A stretch of DNA of 47,428 nucleotides. Origin: a virus. This document shows positions 5,489-23,343 of the stretch, piece by piece. The stretch spans positions 1-47,428 of IMG/VR virus record IMGVR_UViG_3300032579_001181. One strand, 5' to 3'. Each line of letters begins with the position of its first letter. Within the stretch, counting starts at the first letter, position 1. The notes under the pieces are model-generated. The model searched no databases. It was not told the DNA's origin and saw only the letters and a list, made by a program, of their open reading frames with translations. The position numbers and the translations under genes were made by a program.

Positions 5489-5527
5489 AATAAAAAACCT
5501 GCCAATGTTGCTAGATTGACAGGTTTT
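5489..5527. terminator. Bidirectional hairpin terminator between tape measure and gpN genes
   Basis: The two arms, AACCTGTCA and TGGCAGGTT on the minus strand, can pair over about 9 bp with one mismatch-prone position. They are followed by a T tract on the minus strand and flanked by an A/T-rich tail on the other side. The hairpin lies just after the tape-measure stop and ahead of the gpN start. It overlaps the putative -10 of the late-promoter-like site at 5513 to 5557. Confidence 0.6.
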
Positions 5528-5557
5528 GAGTTTGATAGTTAGGTGGCAAGTTTCCGA
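5513..5557 (-). promoter_or_regulatory. Late-promoter-like element ahead of gpN (Mu PP analogue)
   Basis: On the minus strand TCGGAAACTTGCCAC is followed after exactly 24 nt by CAATCT, a poor -10 hexamer. The same box and spacing occur at four other places in this window (14470, 18679, 23299, 46901). No -35 hexamer is seen, as expected for an activator-dependent promoter. Transcription would begin near 5506 and enter gpN. The activator is likely the Mor protein, which is inference. Confidence 0.6.
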
Positions 5558-5559
5558 TA

Positions 5560-7773
5560 TTAATGCCGATAAGGGATAAACACACCTGTACCACGTTTTG
5601 GATTGTTTTGTGGATTAGCATTGGTGATAGTGTTAAATGCGGTGGGAATGTTCCTAAGTGGATTGCTAATCTGCTGGATAACAGGTGATGGCATAGTGAC
5701 ATTCAGGTCAATCGCACGAATCGCATTTGTCTGTTGTTGAATTGCGGTGCGAGTTTGGCGTTGCTCTTGAATCATTTGGTCGTATTTCTGGCTATTTTGT
5801 TGAGTCTCATTAATCAAGCTATTAAAATGTTGGTCGAGTGCTTCTTTGCTACTTTGCACGCCCATATTAGCTAAAATTGTATGTATCGTGCCACCAATTC
5901 GGTCGGATAAAGTAGCATTATTCTCAACCAATGTTTTGTTGATGATAGTACCAATACCATAGCCAACTGCACCAGCACCTGCTACCATACCAGCAGAACC
6001 AGCCACGCCGCCAATTGCCGCTCGACCTGCCGTCATCAATCCACCTGCACGACTTGCCACCGTACCAGCGATACCGCCAGCTGCTGCGCCACCGCCAAGC
6101 TTACCAAGCAAACTACCTGCCATTGATGCAGCTGCTACTGCGCCCAATGCAACACTGGCACTATAGGCAGCAGTTGCAAGCCCTTCATGCTGTTGCATAA
6201 ATCCAGCAAGTTGACTATTAAATGTCGTCAATGCCCCATTCACATTGAGATAGGCTTGATAGTTAATATTCATTTGCTCATTTTGACGAGTTTGATAATT
6301 TGCCCATTCATCGCCAGAGAATAATTTATGCAATCCGTCAACTGTACCATCAGCACCATTTAAGCCATTTAAAATGCGTTCCTTATCACTGCTGCCGTTA
6401 CGATAAGCCAATGCGGCTTGCAAAGCTTGGCGATCAACTAAGATATTACCGACTTTGGTACCCTGTAACATATCCGCCATTGCAGCAAATTTCATGGCAG
6501 CATCTTGAGGTGTTTTGGCAGATTGGGCATCGGATTTGAGTTTTTGGTACTTGCCATTATTTGCCATTTCACGATCAAGCAACTTCATAAAGGCATCAAG
6601 TTTGTTCACGCCTTTGGCGCGTTCACTAAGGGCATAAGTCTCCCAGTCAAACACTTCGGTTTTTTTCTTACCTTTGCCTTTTAGTCTAGTAGCATCCCCT
6701 TGTCGAATATCGATATTATCACCGATGGCATCAGCAAACTCTTTGGTACTAAGCTTTGCGAGTAAATTGACCACATTGTTCCCAGCCTCATCAGCCGTAC
6801 CAGCCCCACGCCTTGCCAACTGATTCATGAGTACGATTTGTTTGAGACCCTCTTCCCCCGCATAACCTGCATTTTTTGCAAGCGGTAACTGACGACTTAA
6901 CCATTGCGCCATGTCACTATACTCAAAACCACCTAACTCGCCGCCACGCACCGCCATATCTTGTCCACGTTTGATATCTTTAATACCAAACATCTGTAGT
7001 TGCATTGCTACGCTTGCTGCATCAGTAGCATTGGCTCCACTAGCAAAGGCGACCTTCGAGGTGTTAGGTAAAATCTGCCCTAATGTGCGAGTATCATACT
7101 GTCCACTGGCTAAAAGTGTATTTGCTGCCTCAAGTACTTGCTCTCGTGTCGCACCACCATCTCTTGATGCCTGCATGACAATACGGTCAATCTGTGCTTT
7201 ATTAGCAAGACGTTGTTGTATTGATAACCCTTGCCCAGCAGTTGCGGTAGCATTGGCACGAGCAATTTGCTCATCATAACTGCGAGCTGGCTTAATTGCC
7301 GTATTAGCCACAGCCGCACCAGCAGCAACACCTCCGACAATAGCAGTGCCAGTATTTAAACCATTTCTCGCCATTTGTCCCATTCTTTGGAGCAAGCCAA
7401 TTGATTGATTTAAATTTTGATTGAGCCTTCCTGCATCGCCAACCGTTCTACGAAGATTGATATTATTAATCGCCTCTTGCATCCGTCTGGCATTAGCCGC
7501 ATTTTGACGTAATAGATGTACCATTAATTCATTTTGTCGCCTTTGAGCCTGTAGGCTTTGAGTTGTTTGCTGTGTTAGACGGTTGATTTGCTCTTGACTG
7601 GTGCGTGCCGTATTGAGTCCACGGGCATACTGACCTTGCGTGGTACTTACTTGTCGCCAACCTTGATTGATTTGCTGTACACCACGGGTTTGTTGCTGTG
7701 TCAGCTGTTGTAGTTCACGCCCTGCATTGCCAGTGAGACGGATATTGAGATTGACAGTGTTATTATTGCTCAT
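5560..7773 (-). CDS. Tail tape measure protein (Mu gp42-like)
   Basis: This sets tail length and fills the tube; it is the longest late protein at 737 residues. The N-terminal 130 residues are a glutamine- and arginine-rich coiled coil (LTQQQTRGVQQINQGWRQ). Residues about 190 to 460 form the conserved TP901-like core with ALYAQ/LGQILPNTSKVAFASG and MANNGKY elements. A hydrophobic glycine/alanine-rich membrane-like stretch follows near residues 535 to 620, and the C-terminus is helical. The start overlaps the end of the frameshifted chaperone by 11 nt. Tail length would be roughly proportional to this size. Confidence 0.9.
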   Translation of the reverse strand: MSNNNTVNLNIRLTGNAGRELQQLTQQQTRGVQQINQGWRQVSTTQGQYARGLNTARTSQEQINRLTQQTTQSLQAQRRQNELMVHLLRQNAANARRMQEAINNINLRRTVGDAGRLNQNLNQSIGLLQRMGQMARNGLNTGTAIVGGVAAGAAVANTAIKPARSYDEQIARANATATAGQGLSIQQRLANKAQIDRIVMQASRDGGATREQVLEAANTLLASGQYDTRTLGQILPNTSKVAFASGANATDAASVAMQLQMFGIKDIKRGQDMAVRGGELGGFEYSDMAQWLSRQLPLAKNAGYAGEEGLKQIVLMNQLARRGAGTADEAGNNVVNLLAKLSTKEFADAIGDNIDIRQGDATRLKGKGKKKTEVFDWETYALSERAKGVNKLDAFMKLLDREMANNGKYQKLKSDAQSAKTPQDAAMKFAAMADMLQGTKVGNILVDRQALQAALAYRNGSSDKERILNGLNGADGTVDGLHKLFSGDEWANYQTRQNEQMNINYQAYLNVNGALTTFNSQLAGFMQQHEGLATAAYSASVALGAVAAASMAGSLLGKLGGGAAAGGIAGTVASRAGGLMTAGRAAIGGVAGSAGMVAGAGAVGYGIGTIINKTLVENNATLSDRIGGTIHTILANMGVQSSKEALDQHFNSLINETQQNSQKYDQMIQEQRQTRTAIQQQTNAIRAIDLNVTMPSPVIQQISNPLRNIPTAFNTITNANPQNNPKRGTGVFIPYRH

Positions 7774-8289
7774 CTTTCACCTGCTTAGACTTGCGACGTG
7801 TAGCGATTAATTTGGTTGTCCCTGTTTCCGATGTTGCTACATCGACTTGAGGCATGGTGGCATTATTTTGGTTGGATTTAGCGTTAGATTTCTGTCTTTC
7901 TGTTGCCACAGTAACAAATTCTAACGCTAATGGGATAGGCATATTCCATGCGTCCAAGTACGGTACACCCAGACGCATGAGTGCCAAGACTAGACTGACT
8001 CGCTCGCTTGTGCCATCTCTTTTTTTTCGAGATCAAAACGTACATTAGCCAGATGGTCGCCATCGAGCTTGCTTGCTCCTGCTAGCTCATCATAGGTAGG
8101 ATTGCGACCTAAGTCATCGATGGTGGTCATTTGGGCAAGCTCTAAAAGCCCAATGTATTCGTCTTCTTTGGCGTTGGATAATGCCTTGTAGCTATCAGCC
8201 ACCGTCAAGGTAGTGACAGTAACATTTTTATGACGCTTGCCATCAATCTCAATGCCGATAGGTAGGGTAGTTTGTTGTGATAATGCCAT
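7763..8289 (-). CDS. Tail assembly chaperone, long form made by -1 frameshift (gp41')
   Basis: The gp41 frame stops at 7990, but the -1 frame is open across the same region and continues to 7763. It reads RVSLVLALMRLGVPYLDAWN and then a basic tail, a sensible continuation. A run of eight A (minus strand, 8027 to 8020) lies where both frames are open and gives a slippery A-AAA-AAA site. Programmed -1 frameshifting between gp41 and its extension is established for Mu and for most long-tailed phages. The extension has no convincing start of its own, only a TTG at 7987. It overlaps the tape-measure start, the usual arrangement. Confidence 0.7.
7990..8289 (-). CDS. Tail assembly chaperone, short form (Mu gp41-like)
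   Basis: This is a 99-residue tail assembly chaperone (phage_TAC / Mu gp41 type). It should coat the tape measure during tube assembly and is absent from the virion. Recognisable features are IGIEIDGKRHKNVTVTTLTV, then a helical SYKALSNAKEDEY part and an acidic C-terminal half. It lies 2 nt from the tube gene and just upstream of the tape-measure gene, the position these chaperones always take. The slippery A run lies at codons 84 to 86. Confidence 0.85.
   Translation of the reverse strand: MALSQQTTLPIGIEIDGKRHKNVTVTTLTVADSYKALSNAKEDEYIGLLELAQMTTIDDLGRNPTYDELAGASKLDGDHLANVRFDLEKKEMAQASESV
8020..8027 (-). other. Slippery A8 tract for -1 ribosomal frameshifting
   Basis: Read on the minus strand the codons are GAA AAA AAA GAG, so both lysine codons can re-pair one base back. 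The zero frame meets its stop at 7990, while the -1 frame stays open to 7763. No downstream pseudoknot was identified by eye. Confidence 0.6.
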
Positions 8290-8291
8290 TA

Positions 8292-8663
8292 TTATTCCTC
8301 AATCTTATTCAATGCAAACATTTCAAGGCTACGGGTTGCCTCACCATCGACTTTATAGCTCTCTGACACATCAGTGACACTACAGTCAATATAGGTAGTA
8401 CGCTTGCCACCATCAATACTCTCTACCACAACACGCGCATCTTCGACGCTTTCCCAGTCAAAATCGTCCATTTCGTCCACAAAGACCTCCAGCGACAAGC
8501 CAATAGACTTGATAGTTTTGGTTTTTTTGCGGACACGTCCTTCTTTATTCATTGATGGCACAGGTTTGCGACCTGCCATGATTTTTGGGCTAACACTATT
8601 GCAGTCAAACTCACGCCCATTGACGTACAGTACGATAGCGCCTACCAGTTGATTATCGCTCAT
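8292..8663 (-). CDS. Tail tube protein (Mu gp40 / M-like)
   Basis: This is the tail tube subunit, 123 residues, matching Mu M in size. The start reads GAIVLYVNGREFDC and is followed by VDEMDDFDWESVEDARVVVE and a beta-rich end (TTYIDCSVTDVSESYKVDGE), in keeping with the tube beta-barrel. It sits between the sheath and the chaperone genes. A ribosome site (AAGGAA) precedes the start. No defect is visible. Confidence 0.87.
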   Translation of the reverse strand: MSDNQLVGAIVLYVNGREFDCNSVSPKIMAGRKPVPSMNKEGRVRKKTKTIKSIGLSLEVFVDEMDDFDWESVEDARVVVESIDGGKRTTYIDCSVTDVSESYKVDGEATRSLEMFALNKIEE

Positions 8664-8684
8664 GGTTTTTCCTTAGTTTATGGG

Positions 8685-9488
8685 TTAGTAAACATCAAGT
8701 GTCGCAGTGACAATATGCATACCACGTACCCAGTCAGCGGGTATACGAGCATTGGCACGCGTCTTGTCATTGAGGTCTTGCACCACAGTCAACTCTTTTT
8801 GTCGATTTGTGACATTTTGCAAAATTTCAGCAGTTTCAAGCTTGATACATCGTGACAACATCAGACTGCGTAAATCTTTACGAGTTGCCTCAGTGTTTTT
8901 ACGCCGCGGGTTTGCCATGACAGCTGTGCGAATATCTTGACGGACATAACGTAGGACTAATGCCCCATTGATATCTAACAGTAAGTCATCAGGCGAGCCG
9001 TTGGCATCCACTTGGTAGGTGCTAATCAGGCGTACAATCGCAGGGTCATCTTGTGCGTCCAAGCCAATTACTGCCACGCCCTTGTTGAGCGCTTGCTCAA
9101 TGCGTGTACGCGTCAAACGCTTATCGGCTGTGACCACAGGCAGATTTGGCAATTTGATGCCATTAAATGGCACGGCAGGGTCTAGCTCTGCTGAGATAGC
9201 AGCGGCGATACCAGCGGCAATCTCTGGTTCAAAGCCTGTCGCACCGTGATAGCAGACAGTTACCACACGATATGAGGCTTTAACTTTGGCAAATTGTGCA
9301 AACGTCGTCGCTTGGTCGATGTCGCTAAATGGTACGATTAAAATAGCATCGTGCTGTTCAGTCGCCGAGCTGACAAAGTCAAGATGCTCAACCCATGCGT
9401 TAGCAGTCGCTTCATCGGTGATGGGGTAGGACAGAGCGATGATGCTGTGTCCAAGTGGGGCTAGGGCGGTTGCGATAATTGGGGTCAT
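8685..9488 (-). CDS. Tail sheath protein, C-terminal part (gpL-like), separate frame
   Basis: The 267 residues match the conserved C-terminal two thirds of Mu-type sheath proteins. They begin at TPIIATALAPLGHSIIALSY and include SYRVVTVCYHGATGFEPEIA, AVPFNGIKLPNLPV, the RLTRTRIEQALNKG motif, VRLISTYQV, and LLDINGALVLRYVRQDIRTA. The conserved N-terminal sheath arm is not in this frame; it sits 950 nt away at 10442 to 10723. The frame has a strong ribosome site of its own (TAAGGAGCAAGC before ATG), so it could be translated alone. The sheath has therefore been split into two reading frames around a foreign insert. Whether the piece still assembles is unknown. Confidence 0.85.
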   Translation of the reverse strand: MTPIIATALAPLGHSIIALSYPITDEATANAWVEHLDFVSSATEQHDAILIVPFSDIDQATTFAQFAKVKASYRVVTVCYHGATGFEPEIAAGIAAAISAELDPAVPFNGIKLPNLPVVTADKRLTRTRIEQALNKGVAVIGLDAQDDPAIVRLISTYQVDANGSPDDLLLDINGALVLRYVRQDIRTAVMANPRRKNTEATRKDLRSLMLSRCIKLETAEILQNVTNRQKELTVVQDLNDKTRANARIPADWVRGMHIVTATLDVY

Positions 9489-9497
9489 GCTTGCTCC

Positions 9498-10337
9498 TTA
9501 AACATTAATAAAACAGGTAAAATCTTTAACACTACTAATAAAACCACTTAAATCACACTGTCCAACTTCTAAATTTTCACTTTGCAGAATAGTGAGCTTG
9601 GCTTGGGCAGTGTTTGGCTTACCCCCAGTACCACTATTTGTCAATGTCGCATCATTTGTCTGAGTGTCAATATAGAAATTTAGCCTATCTTTTAGCAAAG
9701 GTTGATTCGTATTAAGATCTGATAATAAGCGCATGATAACTGCGTTGCTTGATGATGGGTCTAATGTTGCCATCTCAATCGCATCTCTAAACACCTGACC
9801 GTCTATGCTGTATGTCAATATGCCATATTTATGAGTAGCGTTGTGACTTACCATATTGCTATCAATATAGTAAAAATACACAGGTTGCTCATTAACCCAA
9901 CTGTACGTCTGACTAGACCCCCCACCTATAACGATAGATTTCATTGGCGTTAAACAACCATAAATCACTGGGTGATAGTTAATTGATTGCAAATCATCAG
10001 TAAAGTCATATAAACCATGGATAAAACTCGTGTTATTAGGCTCATTACCGCCTGTGCTAGGCGGTAAAAATCCTGTTTTGTCTGTAGTTCCACGCATCAT
10101 AAAATGATAGCTTGAGTTTGGATTTAAATTCTCAAAAGTAAAAACACGCATCGGTGGGTAAACGATAGAGTTTGAATCATCAACTGTTTCAGGTGCGGGC
10201 ACATCAAAGATAGCTACACTTATGTTATAACCCTTACTTGTAAACGCCTGATTGATATAGTCTGCTGTTACTGTATGCACGTTAAATAGTGGTACAGTTG
10301 CATTTTTAGTATCTGATAACACAGAGCCATCTTGCAT
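9498..10337 (-). CDS. Unrecognised ORF inserted inside the sheath gene
   Basis: I do not recognise this protein. The frame is open from 10478 to 9498 (about 326 codons). The first ATG is only at 10337 and has no ribosome site, so the natural start is unclear. The product is beta-rich and Asn/Ser/Thr-rich. It has cysteines near both ends (C-x-L-S-G-F and F-T-C-F-I-N-V at the end) and no signal peptide or membrane segment. The frame overlaps the N-terminal sheath frame by 37 nt. One extra G in the GGGGG run at 10447 to 10451 would fuse the two. It occupies the place of the variable central sheath domain, so it may be an extra surface domain, a moron, or the product of recombination. Confidence 0.5.
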   Translation of the reverse strand: MQDGSVLSDTKNATVPLFNVHTVTADYINQAFTSKGYNISVAIFDVPAPETVDDSNSIVYPPMRVFTFENLNPNSSYHFMMRGTTDKTGFLPPSTGGNEPNNTSFIHGLYDFTDDLQSINYHPVIYGCLTPMKSIVIGGGSSQTYSWVNEQPVYFYYIDSNMVSHNATHKYGILTYSIDGQVFRDAIEMATLDPSSSNAVIMRLLSDLNTNQPLLKDRLNFYIDTQTNDATLTNSGTGGKPNTAQAKLTILQSENLEVGQCDLSGFISSVKDFTCFINV

Positions 10338-10441
10338 GACCGCACCGATAAGAATTTCAGCGTCTATACATGTGGGGTCAACAGCAATAGATACAAAACT
10401 TGATGCAATATCACAAGTTATTGGACTGGGTAATCCCCAGT

Positions 10442-10723
10442 TTATACCCCCATTTGGGGTGACTGCTTTCCCAACCCTTCAACATTGACCCCCTGCGAGA
10501 TTTGCACCATTGCATCCATCATACGACCTGCAACACTACCCACACCAAACTTGCTATCTGCGGTAGTCTTATCGTAGATAGCCGTTGGCAACCCATTCTC
10601 GACACTTTGCACATCATCAGTGACAATCACAATTTTATGATTTTGACCTGCCAATCCAGTGCGCTGCGTGTTGGTATTAATCTCAGTATAAGTACCTGGG
10701 GTGCGGACTTTTCCAATGCTCAT
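10442..10723 (-). CDS. Tail sheath protein, N-terminal fragment (gpL-like)
   Basis: This is the 93-residue N-terminal part of a contractile tail sheath. It starts MSIGKVRTPGTYTEINT, the usual sheath opening with the P-G-x-Y-x-E-I arm, then GLAGQNHKIVIVTDD and FGVGSVAGRMMDAMVQ, where a full sheath would carry on. The frame ends at a TAA soon after. ATG 10723 is preferred over GTG 10726 because AAGGA lies 7 nt upstream. The remainder of the sheath is at 8685 to 9488. Mu has gp38 (a small DUF2635 protein) between gp37 and L; only 12 nt separate them here, so gp38 is absent. Confidence 0.8.
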   Translation of the reverse strand: MSIGKVRTPGTYTEINTNTQRTGLAGQNHKIVIVTDDVQSVENGLPTAIYDKTTADSKFGVGSVAGRMMDAMVQISQGVNVEGLGKQSPQMGV

Positions 10724-10735
10724 CACATTATCCTT

Positions 10736-11347
10736 CTAAGTTAAGTTGTTGATATCACGGGCTATCGCTTGATAGCCGTGTGCTTCATCCAAGATATAAT
10801 CTATCGCCACCACATCTAGCCACGGCTCATCTGTATCATCTGCCGCGCTCGATGTCGTTGCCGTCACAATCCAGTCATACGCTAGGACGCTGACGGTTTC
10901 GTTTTGGGTGCGAGTATTAAATAGGGTAGTGATTGATCCATCATCTAGCGGTTCAATTGGTAGCCCCAGTCGACTACGCTCTAACGCTTGCTCTACATCG
11001 CTAATAAGCTGATAACTACCCACAGATAGCATTTTGCCAGTTTTATCAAATGCCCCTTGCCGCGCCGTCTCCTCCACCCGTTGTGAGCTTGCACCCACAA
11101 GCACAGTAAATACATACTCACGAGCCTTGCGGCGGTTGGTGATTTTGACTGGGGGTTTGGCTTGCTTGAATGTCACCCAAATAGCAGGGAACTGACTGAC
11201 GACTTGGGCAAACTCATCAGGATTTTGCATATCAAAGTCGCCACCATAGGATTTAATCTGACGCACGTTATGACCGTGTACGTCATAATAAGCCTTAATC
11301 GTGTCCTTGATACCTTGCTCAATCGCTGTGAGAATAGGCGTAGCCAT
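10736..11347 (-). CDS. Mu gp37-like protein (DUF1834)
   Basis: This structural or assembly protein of 203 residues lies between gp36 and the sheath, as in Mu. Helical segments and the QSLDRAR-like element EQALERSRLGLPIEPL, followed by a C-terminal SVLAYDWIVTATTS beta portion, fit the DUF1834/gp37 family, thought to act at the tail terminus. ATG 11347 overlaps the gp36 stop (TAATG), so I prefer it to the TTG at 11353. Confidence 0.8.
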   Translation of the reverse strand: MATPILTAIEQGIKDTIKAYYDVHGHNVRQIKSYGGDFDMQNPDEFAQVVSQFPAIWVTFKQAKPPVKITNRRKAREYVFTVLVGASSQRVEETARQGAFDKTGKMLSVGSYQLISDVEQALERSRLGLPIEPLDDGSITTLFNTRTQNETVSVLAYDWIVTATTSSAADDTDEPWLDVVAIDYILDEAHGYQAIARDINNLT

Positions 11348-11781
11348 TACCAACCCCCATTACCAAAAACCGTGGGGCGACCATTGGTCATCTGTGCCAA
11401 GTTAGTCGCTGCTACAGCATTGGTTGCAGTGGTGCTTGCCCCAATACCGATTTTGCCATCATTGACCTGTTTTAGGTTGCCAACCGCCAGTTGATAGCGT
11501 TTTTCGTCACGCTCACTGACACGACTCGCCCCTAGCACCACATGATAGCGAGCGATGTCGCACGCCATCATCTGCACAAAAGGTGATTGCAAAACCGTCG
11601 GTACGCTCATTTGCTTAGCAAGATACGCATCTACTTCCGCATTGGCACTGTCAATTGCTGCTTGCAGTTTGATTTCATTGATTTGTCCCGTGTAGGGTGG
11701 TTCGTTGTCCGTGATTTCGGTCAAGTCTTGCACCCCAAAACGGGTAATCATGGCAGCGATGGTGGCGTAGGTAGTGGTCAT
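11347..11781 (-). CDS. Mu gp36-like protein (DUF1320), head-tail connector type
   Basis: The 144-residue protein opens with TTYATIAAMITRFGVQDLTE and has AAIDSANAEVDAYLAKQMSV and MMACDIARYHVVLG. These are the known signature stretches of DUF1320, the Mu gp36 family, which resembles small head-tail adaptors. It sits between major capsid and gp37. The stop overlaps the start of gp37. No anomaly is visible. Confidence 0.87.
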   Translation of the reverse strand: MTTTYATIAAMITRFGVQDLTEITDNEPPYTGQINEIKLQAAIDSANAEVDAYLAKQMSVPTVLQSPFVQMMACDIARYHVVLGASRVSERDEKRYQLAVGNLKQVNDGKIGIGASTTATNAVAATNLAQMTNGRPTVFGNGGW

Positions 11782-11791
11782 GGGCTACTCG

Positions 11792-12709: not shown

Positions 12710-12774
12710 ATTTTTCACTCTTCATGGTTGATATATAAAATTTTAATCCAGTATTTTTATATCCAGTAATTCTG

Positions 12775-13194
12775 TCATAAAGCCGACAAGGTATTTGTTG
12801 GTACACCGCCCACTTCTACCCAAACATGTGTGCCACCATCCAGCCCCATCATCGTACCTGCGATGAGTTTATCTTGCGTGGCTTTACCAACTGTACCATC
12901 ACCTGTGATAGCTACAGGCTTACCGATATCCGCTTGAGTCAGCGGAGCAGCGGCATCATTGGCGAACATAAAGTGACGATTGCGGGTTACAGCAATATAT
13001 ACTGCGCCATCTGCGCCTTGAGTGTTATCCACATCATGCTCAGCACGACCAAAAAACAGTTTGGCAGTCGCATCATGGGCAGGGACAGCAAAGCCCGCAT
13101 CATTGGTAGCCACCATTTGACTTTCAGTGATAGCGACAGCAGCAGCCACCAACATGGGGATGCGAATACCGTCACGGTAAGGGGTCTGTTTCAT
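12775..13194 (-). CDS. Putative capsid decoration / DUF2190-like protein
   Basis: The 139-residue protein is alanine-, glycine- and valine-rich with an all-beta look (KPVAITGDGTVGKATQDKLI). It lies between the protease/scaffold and the major capsid, the usual site for a decoration (cement) protein in Mu-like and B3-like phages. A strong ribosome site (AAGGAAAAATC) precedes the start. I assign it by size, position and style only, so the exact family is uncertain. Confidence 0.6.
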   Translation of the reverse strand: MKQTPYRDGIRIPMLVAAAVAITESQMVATNDAGFAVPAHDATAKLFFGRAEHDVDNTQGADGAVYIAVTRNRHFMFANDAAAPLTQADIGKPVAITGDGTVGKATQDKLIAGTMMGLDGGTHVWVEVGGVPTNTLSAL

Positions 13195-13231
13195 GATTTT
13201 TCCTTAAAAAGTTATGAGAGGGGATGACGGT

Positions 13232-14335
13232 TTACGCCATTGAACTTGCTAGGTCTTTGGCATCAACACCCAATTGTGCCGCTACCAGTTTGACATCAGC
13301 AGTCAAGGCAACCGTTGTGGGGGCAGTTGAGACTGGTTTACCTGCGGTTTGACTTTGAGTGAGTGCAGCGATTTTTGGTTGGCGGCTTAAATAGTCTTTA
13401 AAACCTTGTAGGTCTTTTTGGGCATACAGCATTGCCCACGACTCTTGAGCAGGGAGTAATTGACCATTAGATAACGCTTCAGCCACTAGCTCTTCGGCAG
13501 GGTCTTTTTGATTACCTTGCAATTCTGCGATTTTTTCATTGAGAGCGGTGACGACTTCAATGGGTACATACTTGGCTGGGTCAGGCTCTTTTTGTTCCAA
13601 CGTAGCAGGGATAGGCTCACCCACTTTGGCAATTTCAGCTGATAGACTTGCCAATAGTTTGCCGTCATCAAGCATCAAGCCTTTTGCTGTTGCTTTGCCT
13701 TTGATGTCTGCAAAGTTTTGATTGAGCGCGGCAATCGCTTGCTCTTCGGTTGTGGTCTCAGCCAAGCCAAGACTGGCTAAAATTAAAGCTAACAATGGAT
13801 TCATGCTGTTTTCCTGTTGTTGAGGTTTGGTTTGTGGAATGGTGATAGCTGCGGTCAGGAGTGCAGGCTTTAATTCATCAAGGATAGATAATGCAGGGTC
13901 ATTGGTAATCGCCACACTATGTAGTCCTAGCACTACGCCAGCTTTGTTGTACAAAACCACAGGCGACTTAAAGCGGTATTCGCCATTGTCGATGTAGTCT
14001 TTGGCTTTAGCAGTGAACTCATAGTTATTGCTACACAAGCCCACACCATCGACATACAAAAAACTACCAGCCTTTAGCCAACCTGCCGCAGGTGCAGGCT
14101 GACCATTTTCTTTTGACAAGATAGTTTGGTGTTCATAATCAATCACCAAATCTTTGGCAGATTGATTAAGCGATGCCGCCAATGCCATGCCATTATCTTT
14201 CTTCATAATCCAAGCAGGCGCGTCAAATGGTCTGCCGTCTTTGGCTTTGACCGCATCACCTTCAGGGAAAATCAAAAAATGATTGGCTGGTACACCTGTT
14301 TGGCTTAGGGTAAGGGATAAGGCGGATAGTTTCAT
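13232..14335 (-). CDS. Head maturation protease / scaffold (Mu gp32, I-like)
   Basis: This is the prohead protease with an embedded scaffold (Mu I and Z), 367 residues. The N-terminal domain carries HFLIFPEGDAVKAKDGRPFD and a DLVIDYEHQ segment, the usual gpI active region. The middle reads SMNPLLALILASLGLAETT and probably marks an internal start for the scaffold form at 13803, by analogy with Mu Z. The C-terminal half is a helical, glutamine/alanine-rich scaffold. A 31-codon ORF and a late-promoter-like site precede it. The in-gene start is inference. Confidence 0.88.
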   Translation of the reverse strand: MKLSALSLTLSQTGVPANHFLIFPEGDAVKAKDGRPFDAPAWIMKKDNGMALAASLNQSAKDLVIDYEHQTILSKENGQPAPAAGWLKAGSFLYVDGVGLCSNNYEFTAKAKDYIDNGEYRFKSPVVLYNKAGVVLGLHSVAITNDPALSILDELKPALLTAAITIPQTKPQQQENSMNPLLALILASLGLAETTTEEQAIAALNQNFADIKGKATAKGLMLDDGKLLASLSAEIAKVGEPIPATLEQKEPDPAKYVPIEVVTALNEKIAELQGNQKDPAEELVAEALSNGQLLPAQESWAMLYAQKDLQGFKDYLSRQPKIAALTQSQTAGKPVSTAPTTVALTADVKLVAAQLGVDAKDLASSMA

Positions 14336-14469: not shown

Positions 14470-14514
14470 ATCATGACAATAACCAGCACTGAAAATTAGG
14501 TGGCAAGTTTCCGA
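14470..14514 (-). promoter_or_regulatory. Late-promoter-like element ahead of the protease operon (Mu PI analogue)
   Basis: TCGGAAACTTGCCAC on the minus strand is followed after 24 nt by CATGAT as -10. It is the same box and spacing as at 5513, 18679, 23299 and 46901. The first 15 bases are identical to the copy at 5543 to 5557. Transcription would start near 14463 and enter the leader ORF. Confidence 0.65.
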
Positions 14515-14975: not shown

Positions 14976-14997
14976 CTAAAAACCTATTTCACTGTAT

Positions 14998-15020: not shown

Positions 15021-15105
15021 ACATCTGCGGTACAAAGACATAACCGCGCTATTAGAATAAAATCTAACGTATGCCTAACGGGGTTTAAATGGATATTTGA
15101 TAGCG

Positions 15106-15582: not shown

Positions 15583-15626
15583 ATCATGCCTTGATTTTGT
15601 TAATAATAAGCCATACAATGCAACTA

Positions 15627-15709: not shown

Positions 15710-15710
15710 C

Positions 15711-17015
15711 CTAATTTGTCGTCATTAACGCGTAATGACTGCCATTTTCGATATTCTCTATCGTATCTACCGTGATTGTCCGTATCACATTGCCTGTAAA
15801 TTTCTGTTTTTCATTAAAGACATTGTGACCTTTGATGTTTTCATTCAAGCGCATGACTAACCGATATTTTGAGTTTGGCACATCAAAGATGAACACAGGA
15901 TAATTTTTTTTGTTATCCCAATACAGGGCATATTTGCCTGTCAAATTCTCGACAATATTTTCTACCCAGCCTTGGCTATGGGTTTTATGCTCACGAGCCA
16001 GATGATGCAGACTAATACGGTCATGCAAGGTAATTACCGCTGTTTGTAGTTCAAAGTTTTTTTCATTTGCCAAAGCCTCAATGAATACACTGGGAATCAC
16101 CCCTACATGGCGAAACTCACCTTTGGCATATTTGGCATCAACGCCTTGCACCCATGTTTTTACTTCTTGATTAACTTGAGTTTTTATACTTGGCTGTGTC
16201 AGCGCTTGGCTCACCACACGACTGGCAAATTTTGGCTCTGCCAATATTGCCTTATCAAATAGCGTCTGCATGGGCAGTATCTTTGGTGCGTGATTAAAGC
16301 CCACATCTGTTTTAAACACCGCCCCATTATCCAGCTCAAACAGCGTCCGCTGGGCTTCCTTGCCATTGGGTAGTTCTACCACTTGGGTAGATAGCTTGCC
16401 CTCACTTTTGCTCACTTTGTAGCCGTAGCGGTCAATCTGTCCCTGTGTCAGCTCCACGATAGTACAGCGACAGTTATAGCCGTTTGGTGGGCTGATAGAT
16501 GACCATGCAGGGTCAGATTTTTCCATGACCTTGCCATGCAAGGCTTTATGCGTAGGACGAGTGCGGTTATCCATGATGGCGGAATACATCACATAGCCAA
16601 ACGGATCATCGTCACGGTCATTAAAGATAACTTGTTGTCGCCCTGCCTCATACGCCGCTGCCACGTTGGTGCGATAGATGGTTTCTAGCCGATGCTGTCC
16701 ACCTGTGACGACTTTTTTGGCATTGCCTTGAGCATCCACATTGATTTGTCCATCGTACCAGCCAGATTTTGCCAGTACTTTATCAATATCCTTTGCCCAC
16801 GCCTTATAGCCCTTACCCTCTTGCATGGCATCAATGATGCTACGCTGTACGGTGGTTGCCAAATCCACATCCACCATCTTAGCTACGACAAAGGCGCGGT
16901 CATGGGCATTGTCCAGCAAATCAGTATATGCCCAGCTGGCTTTTGGGAATTTTTGCTCAAGGTAGCGGATAGCATCTTGTGGCGGTGATTTAAAATCAAA
17001 TCCAGTTTTAGCCAT
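15711..17015 (-). CDS. Minor head protein (Mu gpF / gp30-like) with C-terminal nuclease-like domain
   Basis: This is a head morphogenesis protein (Phage_Mu_F), 434 residues. The N-terminal part has GFDFKSPPQDAIRYLEQKFP and the conserved segment HRLETIYRTNVAAAYEAGR, then MDNRTRPTHKALHGKV and PPNGYNCRCTI, which are family signatures. From about residue 260 it carries an extra C-terminal domain with HHLAREH and FDVPNSKYRLVMRL. The layout resembles the barnase/EndoU/colicin-like (PBECR) nuclease domains reported on gpF proteins; this assignment is inference. If true, the virion could deliver an RNase-like effector. The stop lies beside the tRNA-like segment. Confidence 0.85.
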   Translation of the reverse strand: MAKTGFDFKSPPQDAIRYLEQKFPKASWAYTDLLDNAHDRAFVVAKMVDVDLATTVQRSIIDAMQEGKGYKAWAKDIDKVLAKSGWYDGQINVDAQGNAKKVVTGGQHRLETIYRTNVAAAYEAGRQQVIFNDRDDDPFGYVMYSAIMDNRTRPTHKALHGKVMEKSDPAWSSISPPNGYNCRCTIVELTQGQIDRYGYKVSKSEGKLSTQVVELPNGKEAQRTLFELDNGAVFKTDVGFNHAPKILPMQTLFDKAILAEPKFASRVVSQALTQPSIKTQVNQEVKTWVQGVDAKYAKGEFRHVGVIPSVFIEALANEKNFELQTAVITLHDRISLHHLAREHKTHSQGWVENIVENLTGKYALYWDNKKNYPVFIFDVPNSKYRLVMRLNENIKGHNVFNEKQKFTGNVIRTITVDTIENIENGSHYALMTTN

Positions 17016-18651
17016 TGCTACCTCTAGCAGTCAATTGGTCATCTATGCCCATTGCGGTGCTGATAGCAATCATCTGGGTAAGCGATGCTAACAGCTCTGG
17101 ATTATCTGGCACATTGTCAGATAGATACCCCAAGGCTTCTTCAAAACTATCAAAGCCTTGCAGTTTTTCGACCATATCAGCCGTTAGACGCTGCCCAATT
17201 TGCCCCAGCATATCGTTAGAGAGCAAAGCGTCAAGCCCATTTTCTAACGCCATACGTTGGCTTTCTGCGGTAGTTTCGGCAGGGATAGCCGTATCAGTCG
17301 CTTGATTGAGCATGGCAATCGCTGGCAGTTGAGCGGTGAGTGGTGCTTGCGTAGTTGGGTTTGTGGTTTGCACCATTGACAACACAGGCTCATCACCGCT
17401 GACCATTGGAATACCAAGGCGTTTATGCGCCCAAGGGGCAGGTATTTGCATACCAATACCGACCAGTTTTGGCAGGGCTTCAGAATACACCCCAATATCT
17501 TCCGTTTCTGCCAAGTCAAAGACAAACTTCGGATAGCGACGTGGCGATACATTCGGGTAGTTAATCCGCATCAATGCCCCAATCACGTCACGACTGATAC
17601 TACTAGCAAGCTGTTTGGCATCACTGTCACGGATTTCTAAGCGTGTTTCGTCATGTACTTTGCCAAGGGCATTAGTTGATGACTTGCCATCGGCTTGACT
17701 GGTCAGCGTACCACCTAAGATGGCTTTAGACTGCGACATCTCACACCACTTAATCATATCCATAAATGGGTCACTGCTACCCTTAGCAGCCTCTTTAAAA
17801 TCAATCATCATGCCTTGTGGAATTATCCCTGCTGCACGGTGTCCGATTTCCATCACTGCCCTGAGTAAGGTCAATTTCTCCCCATCCGTTGCCCCAGCAG
17901 GATAAGTACCCAAGCGTAGCGGCAGCCCATAAATCTCAAGAAATTCTGCCAAATCACGCACACTGTAGTTTTTAAACACATACGACCATACCAACGCTCG
18001 GTGTAGTCCACCACGCACCAAGTAGCCCGATTTGGCTTTGTGGGTATGCACCAGCCACGCATTTTCCCAGAGCGGCTCATCATCACCTAAGCCATTACCC
18101 GCCAAGAGCAGCTCACGTTGATTAAATGGGTCAATGATAAACCGCTGCGGCACGTGCCACTGCATGTCATTAATTAGCCATACGTTACCTTCACGCACCC
18201 AGTGTAGCTCATGACAGCTAAACCCTTTACCGATGGCATCTAGGCTATCCGTGATAATGTCTTCAAAGTTTTCGATAATACCCATTAACTCACTGATAAC
18301 TTCGGTATATTTTTGCTCATTGGCATCGGCATTTTTGGGGGCTTTGATTGACCAGTCCAGCTTGGCAACTGTGCGTTTACGCTTGCTCATCTCAGCGAGC
18401 AGGTGCAAGTCACGCTCTTCCATGTCTTCAAATAGGGCAAGCATGGCATTCATGTTTCCCGCTTCAGCTTGAGTGAGTAGGGCATGGACTTTAAGCGGGG
18501 TGAGTCCGATGGCAGGGTGTTCAAACTCTGCACCGTATGCGGTCATGCTGCGGTTTTCGGTTTGGCTTTGGGTGAGTTGGTCTTTGTTAAAGAGTTTGGG
18601 GATGTTTTTTAGAGCAGCAATGGCGTTAAGGGGTTGGTTGTACCATGACAT
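17008..18651 (-). CDS. Portal protein (Mu gp29, DUF935 family)
   Basis: This is the portal of the head, 547 residues. Family features include GLTPLKVHALLTQAEAGNM near residue 50, LHLLAEMSKRKRTVAKLDW, and CHELHWVREGNVWLINDMQW around residue 165. GLPLRLGTYPAGATDGEKL lies near residue 245 and GGTLTSQADGKSSTNALGKV near residue 320. GAGGA lies 7 nt ahead of the start. It overlaps gpF by 8 nt. A late-promoter-like site lies 28 nt upstream, so the portal appears to start its own transcription unit after the plus-strand moron at 18752. Confidence 0.92.
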   Translation of the reverse strand: MSWYNQPLNAIAALKNIPKLFNKDQLTQSQTENRSMTAYGAEFEHPAIGLTPLKVHALLTQAEAGNMNAMLALFEDMEERDLHLLAEMSKRKRTVAKLDWSIKAPKNADANEQKYTEVISELMGIIENFEDIITDSLDAIGKGFSCHELHWVREGNVWLINDMQWHVPQRFIIDPFNQRELLLAGNGLGDDEPLWENAWLVHTHKAKSGYLVRGGLHRALVWSYVFKNYSVRDLAEFLEIYGLPLRLGTYPAGATDGEKLTLLRAVMEIGHRAAGIIPQGMMIDFKEAAKGSSDPFMDMIKWCEMSQSKAILGGTLTSQADGKSSTNALGKVHDETRLEIRDSDAKQLASSISRDVIGALMRINYPNVSPRRYPKFVFDLAETEDIGVYSEALPKLVGIGMQIPAPWAHKRLGIPMVSGDEPVLSMVQTTNPTTQAPLTAQLPAIAMLNQATDTAIPAETTAESQRMALENGLDALLSNDMLGQIGQRLTADMVEKLQGFDSFEEALGYLSDNVPDNPELLASLTQMIAISTAMGIDDQLTARGSNG

Positions 18652-18678
18652 AGGGTAGTCCTCAAGATTTTAGCCTTG

Positions 18679-18723
18679 AGTGTATTTGTTTGTCATTAAT
18701 TCAGTAATGTGGCATTATTCCGA
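18679..18723 (-). promoter_or_regulatory. Late-promoter-like element ahead of the portal gene
   Basis: TCGGAATAATGCCAC on the minus strand is followed after 24 nt by TACACT, a fair -10. It matches the family of sites at 5513, 14470, 23299 and 46901. It sits next to a plus-strand moron that breaks the terminase-portal order, so it could restore late expression past the insertion. Confidence 0.65.
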
Positions 18724-18751
18724 TTTATGCCGTTAGAATTCTGAGGGATAT

Positions 18752-19360
18752 ATGTTAGTTATTCTATTTTTAATATGGATTGTTGCTCTAGCTATTGGTA
18801 TTTTGTTGGCTAATTTATTCAAAGCCAAGCAGTCACTTGTAATTGGCTTCATGTTAAGCATTTTATTTACCCTTGCCACTTTGTTGTTTTTCCCTAAAAT
18901 TTTATTATTTGGTAAAGATGAACCATTACCACCAGTTACAAAACAAATATCCCCAATGCCTTCAGAACCTAACAAAAAATATTCACTCAATATGATTACC
19001 GCCATGCAAAAGGATGCTGAAAAAGTAAATCGCTACTCTAATAAATTTAGGGTAGAGGCAGAAAGAGCATTCGAAAATCATGATTTTGAAGGCATTAGTG
19101 ACATTGATAGACAAATTGAACAATTCAAAAAATCCGTAGAAACGGGACGTGGTGAAAATGCTAAAGCATTCAAGATTTGTGATGATAATATTTTTGTTGA
19201 TTTACCAAACTATACATTTGTAATGAGTGAGTTATCAACAGGAGCTAAAGACACTGAAAATGACTTTCAATTAACCAAAACCGATTACGAAAAGAGTTTT
19301 GAAGCCTGTAAAGATGTAGTCTATCGCATGACAGCAGAGCAGATTTACCAGAATCAATGA
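18752..19360 (+). CDS. Membrane-anchored moron protein, function unknown
   Basis: The 202-residue protein has two membrane segments in the first 55 residues (VILFLIWIVALAIGILLANL and about residues 31 to 53). A soluble, charged domain with two helices follows (DAEKVNRYSNKFRVEAERAF and EQFKKSVETGR). A good ribosome site (GAGG) precedes the start. It reads against the late operon. Its stop and the terminase stop share TGATCA with no gap, so transcripts collide without a terminator. I do not recognise a family. Superinfection exclusion or host change is plausible for a moron but unproven. Confidence 0.65.
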   Translation: MLVILFLIWIVALAIGILLANLFKAKQSLVIGFMLSILFTLATLLFFPKILLFGKDEPLPPVTKQISPMPSEPNKKYSLNMITAMQKDAEKVNRYSNKFRVEAERAFENHDFEGISDIDRQIEQFKKSVETGRGENAKAFKICDDNIFVDLPNYTFVMSELSTGAKDTENDFQLTKTDYEKSFEACKDVVYRMTAEQIYQNQ

Positions 19361-20917
19361 TCAACAAAACCCCTGCATACCACCCATATGCCAATCATCA
19401 AACATATCTTTTAGTTTGCCAGATAACTCACTTGCGGTAGGTACGGGCGTCCATGCCATCGTTGCCATCGGCATGGTACTGGCATAATCGCATAGCAAAT
19501 GCGCGATGCCTGAGTCACCATGCCTTTTGTTACTGCCATCTTCCGACTTGGTACGCTGCTCAGGGATTTTTGCCACCCCTTTGACCTTACGAAACAGCAA
19601 GTGATCATCACGGATGTCTTTGTTGGCTGGCATATTTTCAATCATGCCATCTTCAAGACTGGCTTTAAAGTGTGGTGTATGCTCTCGATACCACCCTTCA
19701 GACAACATCACCGCCTCGACACGCTCACCCCACTTGATTTGCATCTGCTCCGCCAGATAACCACCGTTACCTGTGGCATCATGTGCGCCTTTGGCAAAAC
19801 GTGGCAAACAGTCTGTTACATGGGAAAGGATTTGCTTTTGCTGATTATACGGAACTTTAATCATCTCCAGCACAAACGGACAGTAACGCTTTAGGTTCAG
19901 CCGTTGACCTTGTACCCACATCGATGACGCATCGCGCTTACGGGCAAAGTCTAGCCCATAAAAATGCGTATCTTGCGGTTGCAAGCCCACTAGCAGCGGC
20001 TCAACCGTTGCTTTTAGCCAAGTCTCTACTTCTGTAGTGCGTGCTTCTTCTGTCCACGTATCAAAGCCTTTGGGTGCAGTAAAGGTCACAACTTGCGACT
20101 GCTCATCCGCCAATTTTTCAAGTAGGGCGGTGGATAGCCAACGCCCAGAGCCTTGAGATGGGATAACATCAAGCTCCTCGTCGGCATCATCGCCATAGAA
20201 GTCATAGACTTCCTTGACCCACTTGGTTTCCTCATCCGCATCGTACTCGATACCACGCCGCAGACAAACGCGCTTGTACAGCCCATCTTTGACAGCTTCA
20301 TGAAAGTCGCAGCGAAACACCGAGCCTTTGCGCTTGCCACTACGAATCTCATTGATAAGTTCGTTAAATAAATTCTCATCACCATTGTGCGTTGAGATAA
20401 TACGGACTTTACCACCCCAAATCAGTAGTGCCAGTGCCGCCTTGATTAAGCCAGCAAGGTCTTCATGGAATGCTGCCTCATCGATGACCACCACGCCTTG
20501 CTTACCACGCAAGTTAGATGGGCGACTAGATAGGGCAGTGATACGGTGCTTTGAATTAGGAAAGCGAATGGTAAAGGTTTTAATTTGCTTGTCTTCATCT
20601 TCCCACAATCCTTCTTCGATTTCGCTTGCCACATAATCAAACGAGCGTGCCCACATCGCACACGCTTCGATGAACTCCATTGTCATGTCTTGGTTATAGC
20701 CGACATAATAGACGTTTTGCCCACCACTTTTTTTATCACTGGCAGCGATTAGCACATCATCGGCAGCCTCTGCCCACGTCAGACCAATACGACGAGACTT
20801 CTCAGCGACTTTAAGCTGGCTTTTATCCGCCACCCATGCCTGCTGATACGGCAATAGCACCGCAGGCGCAACGATACTGGCGGTGCTATCTAGTAGTGGT
20901 GGATTTTTACTTGGCAT
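19361..20917 (-). CDS. Terminase large subunit (Mu gp28-like)
   Basis: This is the packaging motor, 518 residues. The N-terminal ATPase has the Walker A-like EKSRRIGLTWAEA near residue 38, WARSFDYVASEI, the Walker B GVVVIDEAAF near residue 140 and an IISTHNG motif III near residue 173. The C-terminal nuclease half has YGLDFARKRDASSMWVQG with acidic residues. It starts at the stop of the small subunit (TAATG overlap). Convergent with the moron at 18752. Confidence 0.93.
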   Translation of the reverse strand: MPSKNPPLLDSTASIVAPAVLLPYQQAWVADKSQLKVAEKSRRIGLTWAEAADDVLIAASDKKSGGQNVYYVGYNQDMTMEFIEACAMWARSFDYVASEIEEGLWEDEDKQIKTFTIRFPNSKHRITALSSRPSNLRGKQGVVVIDEAAFHEDLAGLIKAALALLIWGGKVRIISTHNGDENLFNELINEIRSGKRKGSVFRCDFHEAVKDGLYKRVCLRRGIEYDADEETKWVKEVYDFYGDDADEELDVIPSQGSGRWLSTALLEKLADEQSQVVTFTAPKGFDTWTEEARTTEVETWLKATVEPLLVGLQPQDTHFYGLDFARKRDASSMWVQGQRLNLKRYCPFVLEMIKVPYNQQKQILSHVTDCLPRFAKGAHDATGNGGYLAEQMQIKWGERVEAVMLSEGWYREHTPHFKASLEDGMIENMPANKDIRDDHLLFRKVKGVAKIPEQRTKSEDGSNKRHGDSGIAHLLCDYASTMPMATMAWTPVPTASELSGKLKDMFDDWHMGGMQGFC

Positions 20918-21471
20918 TATTCTGCAATCCCCAAAATCTCTTTTCTAATCATCTGGACGGTATCACCCGATAATCCACCTTTTGACACGATATTTTCTAC
21001 CGCATCTGCTGCCTTTTGCGCCTTGTCACGTACTTCAACCTGCCATTTTTTCTGATTGACGGATGCCGTGGTGACATTGGCAATGCCTTTACCTGCTTGA
21101 CCAAACAGCTTGATACGGTCAGCAGGACTCATGGCGTTTTCATCATCTTCAACCACGGATTGAAAATCAACGAGCGCGTTAAACAGTTCAGTCTGTACCA
21201 ACGACAACACCGCCTGACTACGCACATCCGCGTCATCAGGTGCTTGCTCGGCTATCATCATTGCCGCTTGTGTTGACGCTTGGACAGCCGCTAATTTGCG
21301 CTCTACCTTTTGTCCATAGCGATGAATTGATGACTTGCTAATCTCATAACCTTGCTCACGTAGCCATGTTTCAAGGTCAACATAGCCATTAAAGCCATTA
21401 TCAAACAGCTTATCATCTAACAGTTTCTTGATATCTGGTGGCAATCTATCAATCGCGCTTTCACGTCCCAT
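20917..21471 (-). CDS. Terminase small subunit (Mu gp27-like, DUF3486)
   Basis: The 184-residue protein matches the DUF3486 (Mu gp27) pattern. It has RLPPDIKKLLDDKLFDNGF at the N-terminus, the LETWLREQGYEISKSSIHRY helix-turn-helix near residue 32, and a long helical C-terminal half. It should bind phage DNA ends and hand them to gp28. It overlaps gp28 by one base and follows a very short TM ORF. Confidence 0.88.
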   Translation of the reverse strand: MGRESAIDRLPPDIKKLLDDKLFDNGFNGYVDLETWLREQGYEISKSSIHRYGQKVERKLAAVQASTQAAMMIAEQAPDDADVRSQAVLSLVQTELFNALVDFQSVVEDDENAMSPADRIKLFGQAGKGIANVTTASVNQKKWQVEVRDKAQKAADAVENIVSKGGLSGDTVQMIRKEILGIAE

Positions 21472-21480
21472 GTTTACCCC

Positions 21481-21567
21481 CTATCGCCACAAGGCTACAG
21501 CAGTCACATAACCAATCACAAAGCCAACAATGCCGCCAAGCAATACACCCACACCAAGCATTTCCAT
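21481..21567 (-). CDS. Tiny single-span membrane peptide in the lysis/packaging block
   Basis: The 28-codon ORF starts MEMLGVGVLLGGIVGFVIGY and then runs to ALWR. It is almost entirely one hydrophobic segment with a short positive end. It begins 3 nt after the stop of the gp25/26-like gene and ends 9 nt before gp27. Such tiny membrane genes in lysis regions can act as holin partners. The ribosome site is weak, so it may not be translated. Confidence 0.4.
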   Translation of the reverse strand: MEMLGVGVLLGGIVGFVIGYVTAVALWR

Positions 21568-21570
21568 GAT

Positions 21571-21885
21571 TTAGCCCACCCAATACTTAGCAGGACGAGC
21601 GATACCGCTTGGGCAATCACTGGTATATTCGACCACATCGACACCATCAGCCGTCAGGCAGCCATGCCAATGACCAGAGGGTTGACGTTGCACCTCAATC
21701 ATGCCTTTTTGCTCCAAATAACCCATCTGAGTATGTAGCTCATTAGCGGTGGCGTCAGGATAAATTTCACGCATCACATCAAGCAGCAAAGTATCCAAAG
21801 CTCCGATAGGACGGGCTTTATCAAGGGCGTTAATTAAATGCCAACGCATACCTGCACGCCGAGTTTTCAGCAAATCTACACTCAT
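21571..21885 (-). CDS. Mu gp25/gp26-like winged-helix protein
   Basis: The 104-residue protein contains LINALDKARPIGALDTLLLD, MREIYPDATANELHTQMGYL and a YLEQKGMIEV helix. This is a winged-helix-like fold found in a conserved small protein just upstream of the terminase genes of Mu-like phages. The C-terminus holds a DCPSGIARP cysteine segment. ATG 21885 with AAGAGA 7 nt upstream is preferred to TTG/ATG starts further out. Confidence 0.7.
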   Translation of the reverse strand: MSVDLLKTRRAGMRWHLINALDKARPIGALDTLLLDVMREIYPDATANELHTQMGYLEQKGMIEVQRQPSGHWHGCLTADGVDVVEYTSDCPSGIARPAKYWVG

Positions 21886-21886
21886 G

Positions 21887-22222
21887 TTATTTCTCTTTAG
21901 CAAATTGGGTTAAGGTTGTCTGTACGGCATCAATCTTGGCTTCAACAACCGTAAATGAACGAATAAAATCTTCTTTGGCAACATATTCGCGGGGCAACTC
22001 AGCTTTTAGTTTTAAGATTTCACGGTCAAGCTGGCGGATGGCTTCCGATTCTTTGCTCACATTGTCATTAACCTTGGCGATTTCAGCCTTCAGACCATCA
22101 TCACGATCTTTTAGTGAGGTTTCAATACGTCCAAAAAATGCTTTACCTGCCCCAAAGATTGACCCACCAATGGTAATGGCAAGCATAATCGCTTGGTAGC
22201 CTTCAAGTTCCAGTGTCATCAT
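21887..22222 (-). CDS. DUF2730 protein, membrane-anchored coiled coil (lysis block)
   Basis: The 111-residue protein has an N-terminal membrane span (YQAIMLAITIGGSIFGAGKA) followed by a long coiled coil (AEIAKVNDNVSKESEAIRQL). This is the DUF2730 layout found between the lysis genes and terminase in Mu-like phages. It lies 6 nt from the zinc-finger gene and one base from the gp25/26-like gene, so it is co-transcribed. A spanin-like role is sometimes suggested, but the sequence does not prove it. Confidence 0.75.
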   Translation of the reverse strand: MMTLELEGYQAIMLAITIGGSIFGAGKAFFGRIETSLKDRDDGLKAEIAKVNDNVSKESEAIRQLDREILKLKAELPREYVAKEDFIRSFTVVEAKIDAVQTTLTQFAKEK

Positions 22223-22228
22223 CTGCCC

Positions 22229-22426
22229 TTATCCCTTTTGCTCTTGGGCGGTTTGACATCTGATACAGCGTACTGCCCAAGGCACAGCTTGTTTGCGTTG
22301 TTGTCCGATTGGTACCCCACAGTCAATACACTCGGTATTATCTGTGGCTGCATGATGATTTTTTGCGATTTGTTCATCTAGCCATGCTTGTGCATTACTA
22401 TTGGCTCGGTCTATCAAGTCAGTCAT
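22229..22426 (-). CDS. DksA/TraR-type zinc-finger protein
   Basis: The 65-residue protein has a C-terminal ECIDCGVPI...VRCIRCQ zinc ribbon (four cysteines) and an N-terminal coiled helix MTDLIDRANSNAQAWLDEQI. Such short TraR-like proteins bind RNA polymerase through the secondary channel. The start is set at ATG 22426, which fits the family; a longer frame upstream lacks a ribosome site. It overlaps the holin-like gene by 8 nt. A near relative is at 34687 in the other element. Confidence 0.8.
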   Translation of the reverse strand: MTDLIDRANSNAQAWLDEQIAKNHHAATDNTECIDCGVPIGQQRKQAVPWAVRCIRCQTAQEQKG

Positions 22427-22643
22427 TATCAACGACCTTGGTATCTGATTTGATGATGCCTCTTGATGTGTTAAAGCGTAGTACTGCATTGATTACGCCT
22501 ACCACAGGGGTGGCACTAGTAATCAAGCTTGCAAGGATGACAAAAGCGTTAAACCAGATTACTTTTGACTCCCACCAATGTTTGACTGGTTGGACTAGGA
22601 CAACTTTAGGTTCTTCGTCAATTGGTTTGGTAATATCTGCCAT
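22419..22643 (-). CDS. Putative holin (single membrane span)
   Basis: The 74-residue protein has a charged N-terminus, one clear membrane span (VIWFNAFVILASLITSAT) with further hydrophobic residues behind it, and a basic tail. It lies 8 nt downstream of the lysozyme, the normal holin position in Mu-like phages. Assignment is by size, span and context. Confidence 0.6.
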   Translation of the reverse strand: MADITKPIDEEPKVVLVQPVKHWWESKVIWFNAFVILASLITSATPVVGVINAVLRFNTSRGIIKSDTKVVDND

Positions 22644-22651
22644 TGCCTATC

Positions 22652-23269
22652 CTATGCCAAAAACAATTGGCGTTCTTTTTGACGACGATTCAGCAAGCCT
22701 GATAAAAACTTACCACCCGAATATTTATAAGCCAAAAACGCATCAGCGGCGGCTTGTTTATCACCATTTTTGAGATGTTTAATCACACTTGATTTTGCCA
22801 GTGCGCCTGTACCGATGTTATAAGCAAGGCTTACTAGAGCATCAAACATATTTTGTGATATTTTCCCTTGAGCGATTTCGCCCCGTAGCATAAGATTAAC
22901 CGCAGGGACAAAGTCACGATTAGTCACGTACTGCTTAAGCTCTGCTGCTTGTGGCTCACTAATCGGTGCATCACGAGAAGTAACCGAGCGACCATTAGGG
23001 TAGTAAGTATTACCATACCCGATTGTCCATACGCCTTTACTATCACGGTAAGGACTTGCACGGTAGGCTTCAAATTGCTTAATAAGGCTTGTGCCACTGG
23101 CGGATAATGACATACTGTCTTGCCAGTTATTAATTTCCATCAGCCATTGTTTAAGGTGGTCAGCCGACATGGTTTTGAGCAGTTCATTTGCGACATCTAC
23201 TTCATTTTGTGATAGTTTTTTGTCGTTTTGCATGGCACGTAGCCAGTCAAAAAATTCTTTTTCAGTCAT
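22652..23269 (-). CDS. Lysozyme / endolysin (glycoside hydrolase 24 type)
   Basis: The 205-residue lysozyme cuts peptidoglycan at lysis. The catalytic region starts near residue 60: SLIKQFEAYRASPYRDSKG, then VWTIGYGNTYY, giving the E...D...T triad of T4-type lysozymes. ALVSLAYNIGTGALAKSSV and SGLLNRRQKERQLFLA follow at the C-terminal end. The first 55 residues are a charged helical extension without a clear signal peptide. A late-promoter-like site lies 30 nt upstream, and a terminator separates it from mor. Confidence 0.9.
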   Translation of the reverse strand: MTEKEFFDWLRAMQNDKKLSQNEVDVANELLKTMSADHLKQWLMEINNWQDSMSLSASGTSLIKQFEAYRASPYRDSKGVWTIGYGNTYYPNGRSVTSRDAPISEPQAAELKQYVTNRDFVPAVNLMLRGEIAQGKISQNMFDALVSLAYNIGTGALAKSSVIKHLKNGDKQAAADAFLAYKYSGGKFLSGLLNRRQKERQLFLA

Positions 23270-23298
23270 CTCTTAAGCCCTCGTATGCGGTTGATAGC

Positions 23299-23343
23299 AT
23301 CATAGGCACAATCAATACTTAGCAATACGTGGCACAGTTCCGA
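23299..23343 (-). promoter_or_regulatory. Late-promoter-like element ahead of lysozyme (Mu Plys analogue)
   Basis: TCGGAACTGTGCCAC on the minus strand is followed after 24 nt by TATGAT, the best -10 of the five copies. It lies 30 nt upstream of the lysozyme ATG, so the leader is short. The terminator of the mor operon lies just upstream. Confidence 0.7.

Follow-up and report, generated by a model that had tools for sequence, protein, structure and literature searches.

The Mu-like prophage in this stretch of viral DNA (47,428 nt; called the window here) raises the question of how its late genes are turned on. A pattern search for TCGGAA-N3-TGCCAC (the box) revealed five exact copies, all on the minus strand. 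The first-pass annotation had listed four of these, and each was found as an exact copy where it had been placed. Its set was incomplete, as the copy at 46931–46945 had been overlooked. The five boxes are:

23329–23343, minus strand: Plys-like candidate promoter box TCGGAACTGTGCCAC; −10 TATGAT at 23299–23304; predicted start 23292
18709–18723, minus strand: portal box TCGGAATAATGCCAC; −10 TACACT at 18679–18684; predicted start 18672
14500–14514, minus strand: PI-like box TCGGAAACTTGCCAC of the protease/scaffold operon; extended −10 TGTCATGAT with hexamer CATGAT at 14470–14475; predicted start 14463
5543–5557, minus strand: gpN box TCGGAAACTTGCCAC; extended −10 TGTCAATCT with hexamer CAATCT at 5513–5518; predicted start 5506
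46931–46945, minus strand: fifth box TCGGAAACATGCCAC; extended −10 TGTAAAAAT with hexamer AAAAAT at 46901–46906

At all five sites the hexamer begins at +39 from the box start, which is 24 nt past the box end. The 24-nt spacing had been reported earlier for CAATCT, CATGAT, TACACT and TATGAT, and it is exact in each case. The −10 was also described as lacking a −35. This is so, and what had been overlooked is the TGn element: three of the five window sites carry TGT just before the hexamer (an extended −10), and TGn precedes the hexamer at 15 of 19 de-duplicated close-clade sites. The box itself is a weak, imperfect dyad (GGAA/TGCC). The genes said to follow the first four boxes (gpN, protease, portal and lysozyme) match the corresponding Pfam families. 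The genes and other elements around the boxes are:

23422–23820, minus strand: gene for a 132-aa activator of the Mor/C type, at the end of the early operon; product predicted to recognise the boxes
23373–23406, minus strand: intrinsic terminator, a perfect 12-bp inverted repeat followed by a T run, between the activator gene and the putative lysozyme promoter
22652–23269, minus strand: lysozyme gene, head of the first late operon (Pfam PF00959, Phage_lysozyme)
17008–18651, minus strand: portal gene, gpH-like (Pfam PF06074, Portal_Mu)
13232–14335, minus strand: protease I gene, head of the capsid operon (Pfam PF10123, Mu-like_Pro)
4463–5479, minus strand: gpN gene, DNA circularisation/baseplate hub (Pfam PF07157, DNA_circ_N)
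18752–19360, plus strand: 202-aa ORF, inserted between terminase and portal on the opposite strand

Conservation of the box and its spacing in relatives

The boxes are kept in the viral contigs L006/L008, L007, L054 and L055, whose proteins are mostly 95–100% identical to those of the window. The Plys-like box is conserved in L006–L008, the portal box in L008, the PI-like box in L008 and L054, and the gpN box in L055. At the protease site of L008 and L054, the DNA between the box and the −10 and beyond has diverged, with the −10 still at +39. Overall, the −10 lies at offset 39 in 18 of the 19 close sites. Most other pattern matches in viral contigs (L051–L053, L056) were set aside as chance-like, their genes being dissimilar to those of the window, and a megablast search against annotated phages gave no match.

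A second group of contigs, from Psychrobacter where the source is named, encodes Mor proteins 39–45% identical to that of the window. With gene positions set by tblastn using the window proteins, boxes of the TCGGAACT type were located on the late strand ahead of lysozyme, protease and gpN, the same places as in the window. The hexamers at +39 are mostly [CG]ATNAT-like, and a similar hairpin and T run are present at these loci; a look downstream found no mom-type site in the Psychrobacter prophages. Among 28 tabulated sites of the window and the Psychrobacter-type prophages, TCGGAA, C at +12 and A at +40 are invariant, T at +44 is present in 27, T at +36 in 22, and G at +37 in 21. The sequence between the box and the −10 is unconserved among sites. 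One of the outcomes that the first-pass annotation had named as refuting was a lack of enrichment ahead of the late operons of related prophages. Enrichment was found: among the Mor-bearing relatives examined, all that are complete enough carry boxes ahead of lysozyme, protease and gpN, and the −10 offset is the same.

A Mor-family match is present in 39 of 349 Moraxellaceae genomes. The more distant Mu-like prophages of this family, with Mor proteins approximately 23–31% identical, have GGAA-N4-TTCC palindromes at the same places. In six of these prophages the lysozyme-side, protease and gpN regions could be recognised, and we searched the three regions of each for the best shared 16-mer of unspecified sequence, with NANNNT required at +39. 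GGAA-N4-TTCC was best or tied best in all six, with scores of 9–14 compared to 5–9 in shuffles; the best score for L158 (9) equals the shuffle maximum, and L133, measured from GG, has one base more of spacing. For an unbiased test of the −10, we scanned by the palindrome alone with no −10 requirement. At +39, 29 of the 33 dyads on the late strand had a −10, as did 2 of the 34 on the opposite strand (Fisher p≈2e−12; the phages are related and hence not independent samples, which makes this value a guide only). Elsewhere in the range of offsets from 16 to 69, no position reached half the +39 count. A wider set of palindromes gave 36 of 51 versus 3 of 52. Further GGAA-N4-TTCC boxes are seen in the tail region of L133, L156, L158, L160, L162 and L165 (for example, L156 at 14396 and 17528), which suggests that these prophages may have more than four late operons.

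A host or chromosomal motif was considered and rejected. Across the 349 Moraxellaceae genomes, the exact box with the −10 gave 7 matches against 11 for reversed-pattern controls, which is background level, and it is therefore not a host signal. Judging by the relatives, the host of the window phage is probably a member of the Moraxellaceae.

A Mor/C-type activator and the comparison with Mu

The product of 23422–23820 matches Pfam Mor (PF08765) with 52.4 bits against a cut-off of 24.9, which places it in this family. It also matches PHROG 836 and 532, both late transcriptional activators, and it is the only Mor-family gene in the window. BLASTP detected no significant similarity of the activator to Mu Mor or C, and the Mor proteins had no relevant sequence match in the PDB. 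The AlphaFold model of the protein is of moderate quality (pLDDT 79). Its best Foldseek match is Mu C in the RNA polymerase complex (9l0x_I); the match is weak (E 0.24) and mainly to the HTH, and the VIA Z of 7.4 for the model likewise covers the HTH part alone. The assignment of this activator to the boxes is a prediction from its family, the position of its gene and the co-occurrence of box and Mor.

In the Mu middle promoter Pm, the Mor dyad spans −51 to −36 with its centre at −43.5, and there is no −35 (PMC4287176). The window start sites are predicted from the −10; with the hexamer taken to begin at −12, the window box falls at −51 to −37. This agrees with the earlier statement that the box centre lies about 44 nt upstream, a typical place for a Mor/C-type activator. 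Pm shares with the window sites the −10 without a −35 and the matching dyad position. Unlike most close-clade sites here, which have TGn, it has no extended −10. Pm drives C, whereas here a single activator ends the early operon. The activator gene starts approximately 50 nt after gemA with no box between the two, and the window holds no second Mor-family gene; the two-step cascade of Mu (Mor, then C), with two such genes and a middle promoter between them, was not found. Because a second Mor gene and a box ahead of the activator gene are both absent, we infer that there is no middle step and no second activator.

The late promoters of Mu, namely Plys, PI, PP and Pmom, are activated by C (AF083977; PMC4461284). 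They resemble the sites described here in being several, on the late strand, with a box that lies close to the −35 position on its upstream side, a weak or absent −35, an activator of the Mor/C family, and places at the heads of the lysozyme and I operons. The four sites of the Mu-like prophage have several features of a Mu-type late promoter: location at late-operon heads, late strand, a dyad near −43.5, a fixed −10 and no −35. The box sequence is different: it is of the CATAAYCCC type in Mu and TCGGAA-N3-TGCCAC here (GGAA-N4-TTCC in its family form), and the window boxes do not match the C box of the annotated Mu promoters (AF083977). Conversely, no GGAA dyad in the Mu region 8000–36717 is followed by a −10 at +39. 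The first-pass annotation had seen an echo of Plys, PI and PP with a different box and an added portal site. The lysozyme and I positions do correspond, and the box does differ. Mu PP lies inside gene N (AF083977) whereas the third promoter candidate here is just before gpN, which makes PP an analogue only; the portal site is extra with respect to Mu, but it is not peculiar to this phage (see below).

We consider it very probable, from the sequence evidence assembled here, that the boxes belong to late promoters and that the one Mor/C-type activator of the window (23422–23820) switches these on. The set is best read as a variant of the Mu C regulon with diverged sequences. The early operon would end in the activator gene, followed by the terminator and then by the first late box. 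The activator, probably as a dimer, would bind the imperfect dyad centred near −44 and recruit host sigma-70 RNA polymerase to a −10 without a −35, with the extended TGn strengthening the −10 at most sites. The lysozyme, portal, protease/capsid and gpN/baseplate operons would be switched on at one time, and this late timing is predicted to depend on the activator.

The boxes might instead be sites at late promoters for another protein, either a phage regulator or a host factor, with the Mor/C protein acting elsewhere. The absence of significant BLASTP similarity to Mu Mor or C would fit this reading, but the box and a Mor-family gene occur together in the prophages examined, the box takes the position of the Mor dyad of Mu, the motif does not exceed background in host genomes, and the window offers no other Mor-family gene. 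We regard it as improbable. We give still less credence to a structural or packaging signal, or to a repeat that recombination has copied from one operon head to another, neither of which would be a promoter. A few extra flank bases are common to the 14500 and 46931 sites, which would fit such a reading, but N3 and the flanks vary among the window sites, the sites stand at operon heads, and the −10 keeps a fixed, strand-specific offset despite the unconserved DNA in between.

The reading that a 12-base pattern has simply recurred by chance, with the −10 loosely defined, has almost nothing to recommend it. When up to three mismatches are allowed, the window contains 35 matches compared to 33 by chance, which is no excess, and thus the signal is confined to the exact copies. 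Against chance, the five exact copies compare with approximately 0.004 expected from base composition. This expectation is post hoc, the box having been read off these very sites, and the independent test is conservation in relatives; the place and spacing are conserved across diverged phages, which refutes chance.

Together, the box, its spacing and the extended −10 provide a precise, testable definition of the predicted late promoters in Mu-like prophages of the Moraxellaceae. The literature searched on late promoters of Mu-like phages in Moraxella and the Moraxellaceae contained no description of them. Diverged Mor/C proteins (23–45% identical) are paired with diverged boxes at one fixed geometry, and this pairing should be useful for working out how the family reads DNA.

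The portal site and its cargo

Where terminase and portal are 709 nt or more apart, the portal site is present in every case (ten of ten prophages, with the window and L008, a close relative, entered as two). It is present in none of the five prophages in which these genes abut. In L133, with a gap of 462 nt, only a degenerate box is observed. The portal site therefore seems to follow cargo insertion, which suggests that cargo genes entering the late cluster may bring a new copy of the late promoter with them. In the window, the cargo in this slot is the antisense 202-aa ORF, for which a family search gave no match; elsewhere the cargo is mostly sense. Antisense cargo as a rule was rejected, as the main gap ORF of the window alone is antisense.

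A sigma-70-like divergent promoter for this ORF (18690–18718, plus strand; TTGTCA-17-CATTAT with TG) overlaps the portal box. It has 9 of 12 matches, and the number of such matches is not above chance. Activator bound at the portal box could also shut off the antisense ORF.

The fifth box and the adjacent P2-like prophage

The record joins the Mu-like prophage to a P2-like prophage at about 32600–47428, with the following landmarks:

32719–33840: P2-like integrase
34907–37567: P2-like Toprim protein
45114–46187: P2-like gpD
46997–47428: P2-like gpU

A divergent ORF with DUF6414 (41523–42380, plus strand) is among the accessory genes of this prophage; it had no PADLOC match. The fifth box lies inside an 809-nt insert (46188–46996) between gpU and gpD, which holds the gene of a 54-aa membrane protein and a second ORF, 125 aa at most. 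The insert is absent from four close relatives (L203–L206), where the U–D junction is seamless, and L202 has a homologue of one inserted ORF and nothing else of the insert. The −10 of the fifth site is poor (AAAAAT), and the leader would be approximately 290 nt. A chance copy is unlikely because host genomes contain the box plus −10 at no more than background level. It is conceivable, if rather doubtful, that the Mu-like activator also switches on this cassette, which would have acquired the promoter of an unrelated phage within the P2-like late operon. Such cross-talk between prophages would suggest that a late promoter of this kind can reside within a different phage.

A second motif, TTGGAACNCCCC, flanks the fifth site at 46839–46850 and 46984–46995 (minus strand). 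A search of viral contigs for TTGGAACACCCCC, the motif beside the fifth site, with a −10 constraint gave scattered single matches and no clear class among the matches listed. TTGGAACACCCCC is also present in L201, a related P2-like prophage, where it follows gpU, and another prophage of the same genome (L199) has three copies of TTGGAACACCCC, all on one strand. NANNNT begins at +36 in these four cases, which hints at a different class of late promoter.
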